DNA from: Auraticoccus cholistanensis | Lineage (GTDB): Bacteria; Actinomycetota; Actinomycetes; Propionibacteriales; Propionibacteriaceae | Direction of reading: 5' to 3' | DNA length: 64,000 nucleotides | Assembly (NCBI RefSeq): GCF_009742705.1 | Contig: NZ_WPCU01000005.1 | Coordinates: 279,290-343,289 of the forward strand | In this document: in pieces, positions 41,416 to 44,655 of the stretch | How positions within the stretch are numbered: position 1 is the stretch's first letter | Layout of the letters: the number at the start of each line of letters is the position of its first letter | Made by a program: the position numbers and the translations under genes | Notes under the pieces: model-generated | Told to the model about the DNA's origin: nothing | The model's database searches: none | The model's input: the letters and a program-made list of their open reading frames with translations, nothing else

Positions 41416-41856
41416 TCAGCCCCGGTAGGGGCGCTCCTCGTAGGGGATGGACAGCACCAGCGTGGTGTGGGTGGTGACGTTGCCGGTGGTGCGCAGCCGC
41501 AGCAGCAGGTGCTCCAGCTCCAGCGGCGTGCCCACCTGGACCTTGAGCAGGTAGTTGGCGTCACCGGCGATCGAGTAGCAGGAGACGACCTCCTCGATGG
41601 GCGCCAGCCGGTCGGGGATGTCGTCGGGCTGGCTCGGGTCCAGCGGGGTCACCTCCACGAAGGCCGTCAGCGCGCGGCCCAGCGCGTGCGGGTCGATGCG
41701 GGCGGTGTAGCCGGTGATCACCCCGCGCTGCTCGAGCCGGCGGACCCGCTGCTGCGCCGCCGAGGTGGAGAGCCCGGTCGCCTTGCCGATGTCGGTGTAG
41801 GACATCCGCCCGTCCGCGGCGAGGAGGGCCAGGATCTGCTGGTCGGTCTTCTCCAT
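41416..41856 (-). CDS. Lrp/AsnC-family transcriptional regulator
   Basis: A 146-residue feast/famine regulator. The HTH is DQQILALLAADGRMSYTDIGKATGLSTSAAQQRVRRLEQRGVI, followed by a RAM/ACT-like effector domain (GRALTAFVEVTPL, CYSIAGDANYLLKVQV). It is convergent with kamA, 13 bases apart. Lysine or beta-lysine is a plausible effector and the kamA-kal palindrome a plausible site; both are inference from position. Confidence 0.92.
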   Translation of the reverse strand: MEKTDQQILALLAADGRMSYTDIGKATGLSTSAAQQRVRRLEQRGVITGYTARIDPHALGRALTAFVEVTPLDPSQPDDIPDRLAPIEEVVSCYSIAGDANYLLKVQVGTPLELEHLLLRLRTTGNVTTHTTLVLSIPYEERPYRG

Positions 41857-41945
41857 CCGCTTCCCTTCGAGAGGCGGGGCCGGGTGGCGCCCGCGCGCCG
41901 TCGGTGGTCACCGCCGGCTGTGGCGACATCGTGCCAGAATCGACC

Positions 41946-42917
41946 GTGGCCGAACGTCGACTGATGCTGCTGGACACCGCTTCGTTGTACTTCCGTGCCT
42001 TCTACGGGGTGCCGACGTCGGTCACCAACGACGCCGGGCAGCCGGTGAACGCCGTCCGCGGGCTGCTCGACTTCATCGCCCGCTTCGTCACCGACTACCG
42101 GCCCACCCACCTGGCCTGCTGCTGGGACAACGACTGGCGCCCGCAGTGGCGGGTCGACCTGCTCCCCTCCTACAAGACCCACCGGGTGGCCCAGACGGTG
42201 CCCGCCGACCAGGTGGTGGGAGCCGGCGGCCGCGGCGCCCTGTCGCAGGTGGCCGAGGAGTCCCCCGACGAGCTGACCCCGCAGGTGCCGGTGATCCGCG
42301 ACGTGCTGGCCGCGCTGGGGATCGCCGTGGTGGGCAAGGACGGCTACGAGGCCGACGACGTGATCGGCACCCTGGCCAGCACGGCCGGCGTCCCGGTCGA
42401 CGTGGTCACCGGCGACCGCGACCTGTTCCAGCTCGTCGACGACCGCACCGGCGTCCGGGTGCTGTACGTGGCCCGCGGCATCAGCCGGCACGAGCGGGTG
42501 GACGAGGCGTGGGTGCGCGAGCGCTACGCGATCCCGGCCGCCGCCTACGCCGACTTCGCGGTGATGCGGGGCGACACCTCCGACGGGATCCCGGGCGTGC
42601 CCGGCATCGGGGAGAAGACGGCGGCGCAGCTGCTCGCCCGGCACACCAGCCTCCACGGCATCCTGCGGGCCGCCAGCGACGGCGACCCCACCGTCACCGC
42701 CGGCGTGCGCTCCAAGCTCGCCGCCGCCATCGACTACCTGGCCGTGGCGCCGGAGGTGGTGGCCGTGGCCCGCGACCTCGACCTCGGGGTCTCGCTGGAG
42801 GACCTGGCCCTGCCCACCGCCCCCGTGCAGCCGGAGCGCTGGTCGGAGCTGGTGGCCGCCTGGTCCCTCGGCGGCAGCGCCGAGCGGATCGCCGCGGCCC
42901 TCGCCGCGCGGGGCTGA
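41946..42917 (+). CDS. 5'-3' exonuclease (FEN-like, H3TH)
   Basis: A 323-residue nuclease like the 5' domain of DNA polymerase I but free-standing. RRLMLLDTASLYFRAFYGVP is the N-terminal metal site, LACCWDNDWRPQWR and GYEADDVIGTLAS hold acidic ligands, and VVTGDRDLFQLVDD then GDTSDGIPGVPGIGEKTAAQLL is the helix-three-turn-helix region. GTG at 41946 is chosen since CAGAAT at 41935-41940 would begin transcription there. It probably removes RNA primers or flaps. Confidence 0.9.
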   Translation: MAERRLMLLDTASLYFRAFYGVPTSVTNDAGQPVNAVRGLLDFIARFVTDYRPTHLACCWDNDWRPQWRVDLLPSYKTHRVAQTVPADQVVGAGGRGALSQVAEESPDELTPQVPVIRDVLAALGIAVVGKDGYEADDVIGTLASTAGVPVDVVTGDRDLFQLVDDRTGVRVLYVARGISRHERVDEAWVRERYAIPAAAYADFAVMRGDTSDGIPGVPGIGEKTAAQLLARHTSLHGILRAASDGDPTVTAGVRSKLAAAIDYLAVAPEVVAVARDLDLGVSLEDLALPTAPVQPERWSELVAAWSLGGSAERIAAALAARG

Positions 42918-42963: not shown

Positions 42964-42992
42964 GTGACAACGGTTGAGGCCGTGCTTACTCT
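42964..42992 (+). promoter_or_regulatory. Promoter before the cysteine leader ORF and HNH gene
   Basis: GTGACA (42964-42969), a 17-base spacer and TACTCT (42987-42992) are a good housekeeping promoter with a start near 42999. It opens a leader of about 240 nt ahead of the HNH gene. Confidence 0.6.
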
Positions 42993-43007
42993 TTGTCCAG
43001 CACCGGT

Positions 43008-43026
43008 CGCCGCGCGCATCGCGGCG
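43008..43026 (+). promoter_or_regulatory. Leader hairpin upstream of the small ORF
   Basis: CGCCGCG and CGCGGCG form a perfect 7-bp stem with a five-base loop about 10 nt into the predicted transcript and 40 nt before the leader ORF, with a purine-rich ribosome site in between. Confidence 0.45.
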
Positions 43027-43065
43027 ACACGCCCGGGTACGGGTGAGGAGAGAGGAGGAGCCGCC

Positions 43066-43137
43066 ATGACGTCGACGTCGCCGGCCACCTCCGTCCCCGA
43101 GGTGCGCATCCGATGCTGCGACGGCTGTCAGGGCTGA
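43066..43137 (+). CDS. Short cysteine-rich leader peptide ORF
   Basis: A 23-codon ORF too short for normal gene calling. It starts with ATG at 43066 behind an exceptional ribosome site (GAGGAGAGAGGAGGAG) and ends RIRCCDGCQG, stop at 43135-43137. Cys17, Cys18 and Cys21 are clustered just before the stop, as in cysteine-responsive upstream ORFs known in mycobacteria, where stalling at Cys codons controls the gene downstream. A 10-bp hairpin starts 18 bases after the stop and the HNH gene follows. It has no membrane or enzyme features, so a regulatory role is inferred. Confidence 0.55.
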   Translation: MTSTSPATSVPEVRIRCCDGCQG

Positions 43138-43155
43138 CTCCCATGCCCTCCACGT

Positions 43156-43187
43156 CATGCCGTCCTGCGTCGTCGCGGGGCGGCATG
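43156..43187 (+). promoter_or_regulatory. Hairpin between leader ORF and HNH gene
   Basis: CATGCCGTCC (43156-43165) pairs with GGGCGGCATG (43178-43187), ten base pairs with one G-U, around a 12-base loop. It sits just after the leader ORF stop, where an attenuator or ribosome-controlled hairpin would be; no T-run follows. Confidence 0.5.
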
Positions 43188-43240
43188 CGTCGTCTCCGGG
43201 CACGTTCGTGGTGGACACGATCTGGGCGAAGGAGGAGCCG

Positions 43241-43684
43241 ATGAGCGGGGTGCTCGTGCTGAACACCGACAACACCGCGCTGCACACGGTGTCGGTCAAG
43301 CACGCCATCGGCATGCTCGTCCGCGAGGTCGCCGTCGTCGAGGAGGCCCGCGCCGACCACGCCATCGGGCCCTACCCGTGGCCGGTGGTGCTGCGGCTCG
43401 TCCGCTACGTCAAGACCGCCTTCATGTACGCCCGCGCCCCCGGCTGGACCAAGCGGGGAGTGCTGCGCCGCGACGGCCACACCTGCGCCTACTGCGGCGG
43501 CCGGGCCGACACCGTCGACCACCTGGTGCCGCAGTCCCGCGGCGGACCCAACACCTGGCTCAACACGGTGGCGGCCTGCGGCCGGTGCAACGCCCTCAAG
43601 GCCGACCGCACGCCCGCCGAGGCGCGGATGCTGCTCCGGTTCCGCCCCTACGCGCCGTCGCGGGCCGAGCTCACCGGCCTCTGA
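43241..43684 (+). CDS. HNH endonuclease
   Basis: A 147-residue nuclease-like protein. Zinc-binding CAYCGG and CGRCN frame the HNH core TVDHLVPQSRGGPNTWLNTVAACGRCNALKADRTP (His at the catalytic VDHLVP, Asn in NTWLN, N in RCNALK). The N-terminal half (SGVLVLNTDNTALHTVSVKHA) is typical of stand-alone chromosomal HNH proteins of unknown role in Actinobacteria. ATG at 43241 has AAGGAGGAG upstream. The last 37 bases overlap the 3' end of the WYL regulator gene on the other strand. Confidence 0.9.
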   Translation: MSGVLVLNTDNTALHTVSVKHAIGMLVREVAVVEEARADHAIGPYPWPVVLRLVRYVKTAFMYARAPGWTKRGVLRRDGHTCAYCGGRADTVDHLVPQSRGGPNTWLNTVAACGRCNALKADRTPAEARMLLRFRPYAPSRAELTGL

Positions 43685-44655
43685 GAGCCGTCCCCCGCCC
43701 GGGGGTCCGCGACCGAGCGACGGTAGCGCTCGCCGACGATGCGGAGGTGCTCGACCAGCTCGGGCGGCCCGTCGACGTGGAAGTCCAGTCCCAGCATGCC
43801 GATGTAGACCGCCACCGTCTCGTAGGTGTCGGCGCCGGTGACCAGGACGCAGCGCGTCTCGTCGACCTCCTCCACGACGCCGACGGCGGCGTTGATCCGG
43901 GCCAGCACCTCGCCGGCGGGCGCCTCCACCGCGATGCGCGCGTGCACCCGCCACCCGGTCGAGGCCACGTCGCGCAGCACGAAGCCGGCGTAGTCCTCGC
44001 CCTCCAGGGGGCGGGGGGTGAAGCGGCCGGCACCAGGGGTGCGCAGCCGCACCCGGTCGACCCGGAAGGCCTGCCAGCTGCCCGTCGGGCGTCGGCGCGC
44101 CACCACGTACCAGCGCTGCTGCCACGTCACCAGCCGGTACGGCTCGGCCTCGACCGGCTCCTCGTCGTACCAGAACCGCACCGCCTCGTGGTCGCGGACG
44201 GCCGCGGCCAGGTCGGCCAGCCGGGCGGTGTCGACCGGCGGCGCGGCCATGTTGGTCGAGGTGTCGGCCGGCCCGACGTCGGTGCTCTCCAGCACCGCGC
44301 GCACCCGGCGGCGCAGCCGGGTCGGGAGCACGTGCTCCAGCTTGCCCAGGGCCAGCGCGCTGGCCTCGGCGACCCCCGGCAGGGAACGGGCCGAGGACAA
44401 CCCGACGGCGACGGCCACCGCCTCGTCGTCGTCCAGCAGCAGCGGCGGGAGGGTGCCGTGCGGGCCGAGGCGGTACCCGCCCGACGGCCCCCGCACCGAC
44501 TCGATGGGGTACCCCAGCTCGCGGAGCCGCTCGATGTCCTTGCGCAGCGTGCGCTCCCCGACGTCCACCCGCCGGGCCAGCACGGCGCCGGGCCAGGTGC
44601 CGCGCGTCTGCAGCAGCCCCAGCAGCGCCAGCAGCCGCGAGGAGGTCTCGATCAC
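43648..44655 (-). CDS. WYL-domain transcriptional regulator (YafY-like)
   Basis: A 335-residue regulator: an N-terminal HTH_11-like winged helix (RLLALLGLLQTRGTWPGAVLARRVDVGERTLRKDIERLRELG), then a WYL domain (AVRFWYDEEPVEAEPYRLVTWQQRWYVVARR) and a WCX-like C-terminal part. WYL proteins sense nucleic-acid or nucleotide ligands. It is divergent from the epoxide hydrolase gene across a 98-bp gap and probably regulates it. Its 3' end runs into the HNH gene. Confidence 0.9.
   Translation of the reverse strand: MIETSSRLLALLGLLQTRGTWPGAVLARRVDVGERTLRKDIERLRELGYPIESVRGPSGGYRLGPHGTLPPLLLDDDEAVAVAVGLSSARSLPGVAEASALALGKLEHVLPTRLRRRVRAVLESTDVGPADTSTNMAAPPVDTARLADLAAAVRDHEAVRFWYDEEPVEAEPYRLVTWQQRWYVVARRRPTGSWQAFRVDRVRLRTPGAGRFTPRPLEGEDYAGFVLRDVASTGWRVHARIAVEAPAGEVLARINAAVGVVEEVDETRCVLVTGADTYETVAVYIGMLGLDFHVDGPPELVEHLRIVGERYRRSVADPRAGDGSQRPVSSARDGA

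Follow-up and report, generated by a model that had tools for sequence, protein, structure and literature searches.

The question raised by this locus is how the gene for a small HNH endonuclease of Auraticoccus cholistanensis is controlled by the short stretch in front of it, which holds a promoter, two hairpins and an open reading frame (ORF) with a CC-x-x-C run. The initial annotation of the window (i.e., the whole 64,000-nt stretch of DNA that was analysed) had read this arrangement as a translation-linked attenuator sensing Cys-tRNA or cysteine or, failing that, as a source of a small metal-binding peptide. Its promoter, first hairpin, strong ribosome site, 23-codon ORF ending in RIRCCDGCQG and HNH gene are all present in the sequence, and the second hairpin does start 18 nt after the leader stop codon, but it has 14 pairs and not the 10 bp first given. 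The features discussed here are the following:

41904-42917, + strand: upstream neighbour, a 5′-3′ exonuclease-like protein (PF02739, PF01367).
42964-42992, + strand: putative promoter, GTGACA - 17 nt - TACTCT, with hexamers at 42964-42969 and 42987-42992 read from the sequence.
43006-43028, + strand: 5′ UTR hairpin GTCGCCGCG-CGCAT-CGCGGCGAC, a perfect 9 bp with arms at 43006-43014 and 43020-43028, present in both the MFE and the centroid structure.
43053-43058, + strand: predicted ribosome binding site of the leader ORF, AGGAGG, read from the sequence.
43066-43137, + strand: leader ORF of 23 codons, MTSTSPATSVPEVRIRCCDGCQG*, with its ATG at 43066 and its TGA at 43135-43137; homologous leaders are found in genomes G001 and G015.
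43105-43113, + strand: proposed gate R-x-R (CGC ATC CGA), codons -5 to -3 counted back from GAC, placed by Arg conservation and ribosome masking.
43120-43127, + strand: predicted 5′ strand of the antiterminator, GACGGCTG, within the D-G-C codons; its partner is 43156-43164, with one bulged base.
43130-43149, + strand: predicted inner stem of the antiterminator, AGGGC/GCCCT, which encloses the leader stop codon in the MFE structure.
43156-43187, + strand: terminator-like hairpin CATGCCGTCCTGCG-TCGT-CGCGGGGCGGCATG, a perfect 14 bp starting 18 nt past the leader stop, with no T-rich run after it.
43230-43235, + strand: predicted ribosome binding site of the HNH gene, AGGAGG, read from the sequence.
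43241-43684, + strand: HNH endonuclease of 147 aa, with its ATG at 43241 and its stop at 43682-43684 (PF14279, PF01844).

The fold of the whole leader was unexceptional when compared with shuffled sequences (z -0.98), and the case was therefore built on comparison and not on folding energy. An Rfam search of the leader at E ≤ 5 gave five matches, all well under their gathering scores. The window's hairpin (43156-43200 inspected) lacks the T-rich run that follows it in 20 other leader-bearing orthologs, so that its strength as a terminator in this genome is uncertain. A promoter-like element of the form TGACA-17-TA[CTG]TCT was also seen by eye, unscored, 5′ of the leaders L010, L091, L093, L094, L096 and L099. 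In addition, a second open frame (43113-43244, + strand) overlaps the leader and closes at the ATGA where the HNH gene starts; several relatives have comparable frames, noticed by eye, which are possibly due to chance in GC-rich DNA. A programmed frameshift from the leader into the HNH gene was considered and dropped by eye, since open frames that reach an overlapping ATGA are common in such DNA.

We searched 198 genomes of the bacterial family and retained the 36 with a close HNH ortholog (E ≤ 1e-50). With a T-rich run defined as TTTT, or at least 5 T in 7, in 20 of the 36 orthologs a hairpin with such a run starts 25 to 83 nt upstream of the HNH start codon; the window has the homologous hairpin without the run. 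As expected of an attenuator, a leader ORF with its own ribosome site precedes the hairpin in all 21 (the window and 20 others), the site being weak in L121; the leaders of L119 and L121 were missed by the first ORF filter and recovered in a later scan. A hairpin with a T-rich run was found in none of the 15 other orthologs (12 of one genus plus three, with L123 represented by only 86 nt of upstream DNA), and the short ORFs seen behind a ribosome-like site in five of the 15 bear no sequence relation to the leaders. On the HNH protein tree the 21 leader-bearing and the 15 leaderless proteins separate, with supports of 0.72 (leader clade) and 0.86. Judged by sequence comparison, the arrangement of leader and hairpin is not a chance one, since it recurs upstream of orthologs.

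The surroundings of the gene are also conserved. At 18 of 19 leader-bearing loci that were examined, an exonuclease-like gene lies within about 2.5 kb of the HNH gene (at 3 of them on its downstream side and in inverted orientation), which argues for a stable chromosomal locus; none was found at the single leaderless locus examined. The place of a small regulator-like ORF (41416-41856, - strand), which we take to be of the Lrp type, beside the exonuclease gene is kept as well, and a WYL-domain regulator (43648-44655, - strand) is a further neighbour. The leader pattern CGNNCNATCGACGGNTGTC, which does not cover the window's own leader, occurred in 9 of the 198 genomes, 6 times at HNH leaders, and its reversed control occurred in 2, so that there was no sign of a wider regulon.

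The 21 leaders fall into two groups. Group 1, the type of the window, has 11 members: L009 (the window), L010, L091, L093-L097 and L100, which stop before the terminator, and L092 and L101, which run through it. The nine that stop before the terminator have 23 to 52 codons, and their length and N-terminal part vary freely. Their C-termini are alike, i.e., RIRCCDGCQG in the window and, among the others, RVRSCDGCRG and RVRSCDGCLG (G001/G015), CLRRRTIDGCPG (two leaders) and RCRTIDGCPC; L092 and L101 keep RRRTIDGC or WRRSAIDGC, yet read on through the terminator. Codon -5 is Arg in 11/11, specified by CGC, CGT or CGG, so that the residue is conserved while the codon drifts; codon -3 is Arg in ten, and R-x-R is present in 10/11. 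From this residue conservation with synonymous change we infer that the leader is translated. The cysteines behave otherwise: the two nearest relatives both have Ser at the first codon of the CC pair, eight of the 11 leaders have Ile at the second, and only the last Cys, which is positioned inside the RNA element, is constant. All 11 leaders encode this terminal Cys with TGT, which in neighbouring genes accounts for 85 of 568 Cys codons (with a single leader taken per genus, the product over six genera is ~1e-5). The GACGG of the D-G codons is invariant in group 1, and its complement is the CCGUC of the terminator 5′ arm (CCGUU in L092).

We then examined whether GACGG and the terminator compete for this arm. 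With the terminator 3′ arm left out, the GACGG:CCGUC pairing formed in L009 (the window), L010, L091, L093-L097 and L100 with P 0.99, 1.00, 0.93, 0.99, 0.98, 0.34, 1.00, 0.95 and 1.00, i.e., at least 0.93 in eight of the nine and 0.34 in L095; when folding begins at GACGG, the values are 0.96-1.00 in 9/9. An antiterminator and a terminator that exclude each other through a common arm were thus found in 8/9 (P ≥ 0.93), and the antiterminator was absent from the two read-through leaders L092 and L101 (P 0.02 each). With the 3′ arm present, equilibrium folding gave an antiterminator P of at most 0.03 in six of the nine, and 0.998, 0.83 and 0.34 in L010, L096 and L100; most leaders thus favour the terminator at equilibrium, whereas L010 and L096 favour the antiterminator. 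The spacers between the two strands are 35 to 61 nt long and unlike in sequence, yet nested stems join the GACGG and CCGUC strands; when only the spacers were shuffled, 30, 14, 2, 0, 11, 73, 0, 1 and 1 of 200 shuffles (same order) matched the native pairing P. That unlike spacers are predicted to fold alike is the best evidence for the antiterminator structure. A simple scan for the upstream segment that pairs best with the terminator arm gave a weak result, the GACGG motif being chosen in only 3/11 leaders. Furthermore, the CCGUCC arm is present in several sister-group members that have no GACGG, so that the arm is not shaped by pairing with GACGG alone.

To place the ribosome we masked a 26-nt stretch surrounding each codon, the occlusion assumed for the ilvB1 attenuator in PMC13236596; this combines equilibrium folding with an idealised ribosome, and hence ranks codons but is no proof of stalling. 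Over the nine leaders the mean antiterminator P was 0.83 with the ribosome on codon -6, 0.94 on -5 and 0.15 on -4, and then 0.00 throughout -3 to +4, with 0.02 on the stop codon, the last permissive codon being -5 in 9/9. For the window's leader, P was 0.99 with the ribosome on Arg -5, fell to 0.35 at Ile -4 and was 0.00 at each codon of the CC pair. Codons -9 to -7 likewise gave 0.00, which leaves only -6 to -5 as clearly permissive there. When the downstream cover was varied from 9 to 17 nt, the last permissive codon shifted between -3 and -6 but never onto the Cys codons; L097 had no permissive codon from 11 nt of cover on, and at 17 nt neither L009 (the window) nor L091 had one. The geometry thus favours Arg and opposes Cys, and a shortage of cysteine would favour termination. 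With no ribosome on the full leader, the antiterminator P in the nine was 0.74, 1.00, 0.92, 0.98, 0.86, 0.32, 0.76, 0.01 and 0.99; the structure forms ribosome-free in most leaders, and loss of leader translation should therefore also turn the gene on, L097 (0.01), in which it barely forms, being set apart.

Taken together, comparison and modelled folding point to a ribosome-dependent transcription attenuator that probably couples expression of the HNH nuclease to translation capacity and is gated at Arg codons. In the default state, with good translation, the ribosome would reach the leader stop and cover the GACGG end and the inner stem; with that end covered, the terminator hairpin would form and transcription would mostly stop. 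If the ribosome stalled at or before R-x-R, or if the leader were left untranslated, GACGG would pair with the CCGUC of the terminator 5′ arm, the terminator would be blocked, and the HNH gene would be transcribed. The ilvB1 model likewise has a ribosome at the stop codon permit termination, according to PMC13236596. Conservation of the leader, conservation of the terminator and the mutual exclusion in most leaders are direct results of the computation. The ribosome presumably stalls at the invariant Arg codons, through scarce charged Arg-tRNA or another block at that point; the nuclease would then be part of a translation-stress response, and termination may be supposed to occur in the window's own genome too. 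The attenuator part of the initial annotation thus gains support, both from the 21 orthologs with leader and hairpin vs the 15 without a terminator and from the mutually exclusive hairpins.

Group 2, the sister group, comprises ten leaders from four genera (L099, L103, L111, L115 and L117-L122). These have no CDGC, and their ORF extends into or through the terminator; eight of the ten ORFs end at, or at most 16 nt from, the HNH start codon, L119 runs on, and L122 ends at the base of the terminator. Each leader has exactly one in-frame ATA (10/10), 39-60 nt before the terminator. ATA is rare in the neighbouring genes of nine of the ten genomes (22 in 40,535 codons, i.e., 0.5 per 1000), so that the 10 found in 326 leader codons compare with 0.18 expected; none occurs in the other two frames (630 codons) or in the group 1 leaders (512 codons), and with one leader per genus the count is 4 in 127 codons (P ~9e-7). 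A masked ribosome ~10 to 13 codons past the AUA breaks the terminator in nine of the ten, L120 staying unbroken within the 15 codons tried. In coupling of the pyrBI type the leader ORF crosses the terminator, and a ribosome that follows closely breaks the hairpin. On the masking model the logic of group 2 resembles this, i.e., a ribosome that reads on gives the ON state, and the sign of the predicted switch is opposite to that of group 1. Two gate types within one bacterial family, together with a perfectly invariant AUA, are unusual.

Both leader types could, in a bolder reading, be codon gates through which the nuclease senses the condition of the tRNA pool and serves as an alarm for tRNA supply: the Arg gate of group 1 would switch it on when translation falters, and the AUA gate of group 2 would let it be made only if AUA is read fast. 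AUA, the rarest Ile codon, would delay the ribosome, and fast reading might occur, e.g., in the presence of a phage or plasmid that supplies a tRNA array of its own. If true, this would also explain the presence of the HNH family inside tRNA arrays (see below), but we hold it to be quite improbable.

The attenuator gated at Arg codons has to be weighed against other accounts of the same leader. An unlikely one is that this is an ordinary 5′ UTR, in which an untranslated or unregulated short ORF and the leftover terminator of the upstream unit leave HNH expression constantly low. Hairpins and open frames do arise readily in GC-rich DNA, 5 of the 15 leaderless orthologs have a short ORF of some kind behind a ribosome site, the leader fold has a z of only -0.98 and the window's hairpin has no T-rich run; against this, ribosome site, leader motif, spacing and terminator are conserved together in 21 orthologs, differing spacers fold alike in 8/9, and the codons are constrained, with TGT in 11/11 and, in the sister group, an in-frame AUA in 10/10 and none in 630 other-frame codons. 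Of similarly low probability is an antibiotic-responsive arrest, in which macrolide- or ketolide-bound ribosomes would arrest at R-x-R and so turn the HNH gene on, cf. the erm leaders and whiB7. In arrest of the macrolide type at R-x-R the second Arg, here codon -3, occupies the A site. R-x-R is found in 10/11 leaders, but this arrest codon lies one codon too far downstream: the mean antiterminator P is at most 0.15 when it is masked, and codon -3 is permissive in 4/9 leaders, only with the shortest footprint tried. The induction of whiB7 through stalling in its uORF, as reported in PMC13236596, speaks for a mechanism of this kind.

The cysteine-responsive attenuator of the initial annotation, in which scarce Cys-tRNA stalls ribosomes at CC-x-x-C and turns the HNH gene on, is very improbable. 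Its Cys codons are close to the leader stop, the five leaders of one genus (g14) have a Cys codon at -7, upstream of the gate, and Cys leaders have been described in mycobacteria and before the cys operons of P. acnes (PMC1262725). However, the CC pair is not conserved, and a ribosome on either CC codon of the window leaves the antiterminator at P 0.00; the ten related leaders of group 2 have no CC-x-x-C motif and have a different constrained codon, and HNH is no sulfur gene. The comparison of orthologous HNH loci that had been proposed as a check thus gave a split outcome, the hairpin being kept (21 orthologs) and CC-x-x-C not. A screen for CC codons upstream of the orthologs found nothing homologous, because the CC pair is not conserved. 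That the leader instead makes a small functional peptide (metal-binding, as first suggested, or toxin-like), with the hairpin as its own terminator, has a strong ribosome site and the CC-x-x-C of the window's genome in its favour, but is scarcely credible given the variable length and N-terminal part (23 to 52 codons in nine leaders), CDGC in only 3/21 leaders, the lack of any Pfam (E ≤ 0.001) or NCBIfam (E ≤ 1) match in a profile search of the leader peptide, and sister-group ORFs that enter or cross the hairpin and in 8/10 end at the HNH start.

To return to the gene that the Arg-gated attenuator would control, its product matches the profiles PF14279 (E 2.5e-10) and PF01844 (E 9.8e-10); no Pfam domain was found in its N-terminal half. 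The HNH core and two CxxC pairs (C82, C85, D93, H94, N108, C113, C116, N117) are invariant in an alignment of 35 sequences. The structure model has a mean pLDDT of 88.8, and its Foldseek matches, only 3 of them at E ≤ 0.001, include HNH domains of the Cas9, IscB and McrA types. With this core, i.e., predicted metal and zinc residues, the protein can be assigned to the HNH endonuclease superfamily. Small HNH nucleases akin to it were found in many phyla. A tRNA gene lies within 1.5 kb at 17 of 140 HNH family loci, and two or more at 11 of the 17, in a set that holds some genomes twice and includes ten plasmid or phage pieces chosen from match lists; the window itself has no tRNA gene within 64 kb. 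The tRNA-adjoining loci are from Catellatospora (four species), Rugosimonospora, two planctomycete MAG contigs, a Mycolicibacterium plasmid, a Tolypothrix plasmid and the phages Cece and S-CBWM1, and at six Micromonosporaceae loci a tRNA-Gly(GCC) directly precedes the HNH gene. In another family of the order, one of two HNH paralogs lies among tRNA genes in 7/7 genomes, and a third family adds another such locus; these 9 order-level regions were picked mostly for the tRNA genes seen upstream, and one had none. HNH relatives beside or inside tRNA arrays were noted at L034, L035, L038, L041, L052, L053, L141, L142, L144, L145, L221-L225 and L227-L229.

Upstream stretches of 40 HNH loci from other families of the order, out of many more matches, were also taken, with the HNH start recognised in 27 and its position assumed from coordinates in 13. 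A hairpin with a T-rich run was present within 130 nt in 4/40, strong only in L185 and L189. These two, from another family of the order, have it ~90 nt before the HNH gene, with a possible 30-codon ORF ahead, and may represent a further, independent leader switch. Inspection by eye of the 27 order-level upstream stretches revealed nothing homologous to the window's leader motif and showed tRNA genes in 8 of them. Four Micromonosporaceae loci (L026, L027, L028, L030) have 14-codon ORFs of other sequence that end in Gly-stop and are followed by a hairpin before the HNH gene (a terminator by scan in L026, L027 and L028, not in L030); these are probably separate switches. In L031 and L033 a ribosome site and a two-codon ORF, ATG CCC TAG, stand ~70 nt upstream of the HNH gene within a conserved leader, and L059 and L060 have leader-like ORFs upstream of it that end in ..HISG* and ..RISGRR*, with Ile again encoded by ATA.

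Published work places HNH genes in similar company. In mycobacterial tRNA arrays the most widespread coding gene is an HNH-type endonuclease (PMC5966550), and the HNH genes of such arrays are treated mainly as homing-type in PMC5966550 and PMC6409571. Deleting the repressor of a translation-stress tRNA operon in Anabaena raises the expression of two HNH genes 7- and 17-fold; their regulon also contains rtcB and a 26-tRNA operon, and all8564, one of the two, is listed among the genes raised by chloramphenicol as well (PMC10272220). By analogy, these stress-regulon genes may be counted as family context for the attenuator reading. Among the papers listed by our literature search, none reported an attenuated HNH gene. 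A conserved, apparently translation-gated switch before an HNH gene at a stable chromosomal place would point to the signal (translation failure or tRNA supply), and thereby offer a route to the function of the nuclease.

Among known systems, the trp attenuator and the ilvB1 attenuator of M. tuberculosis are similar in having a short leader ORF, gate codons and an antiterminator and a terminator with a common arm; in the window, however, the target is a nuclease and not a biosynthetic operon, and the proposed gate consists of one to three Arg codons beside a conserved D-G-C. To our knowledge there is no link between the amino acid sensed and the function of the HNH gene. The likeness to pyrBI, a leader ORF through the terminator, holds for group 2 only, which differs in its one invariant rare AUA 39-60 nt before the terminator and in that 8/10 ORFs end at the HNH start. 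In the whiB7/wblC uORF attenuator of actinobacteria, as outlined in PMC13236596, ribosome stalling in the leader induces a stress gene; the target in the window is an HNH nuclease, and the two are likened by arrangement and not by leader sequence. The leaderless polycysteine sORFs of mycobacteria, which precede cysteine genes (Canestrari 2020, as cited in PMC9094748 and PMC13236596), also have Cys codons in a short upstream ORF, whereas the window has a 5′ UTR with AGGAGG and promoter-like hexamers ~75 nt before the ATG (predicted start), its Cys run is not conserved, its downstream gene is an HNH gene and not one for sulfur or cysteine, and its geometry opposes Cys sensing. Finally, the HNH genes of tRNA arrays (in mycobacteria, PMC5966550, and in the Anabaena regulon, PMC10272220) belong in the comparison since the window's HNH family also occurs within tRNA arrays, but the window's gene, with no tRNA within 64 kb, has a putative leader switch instead.
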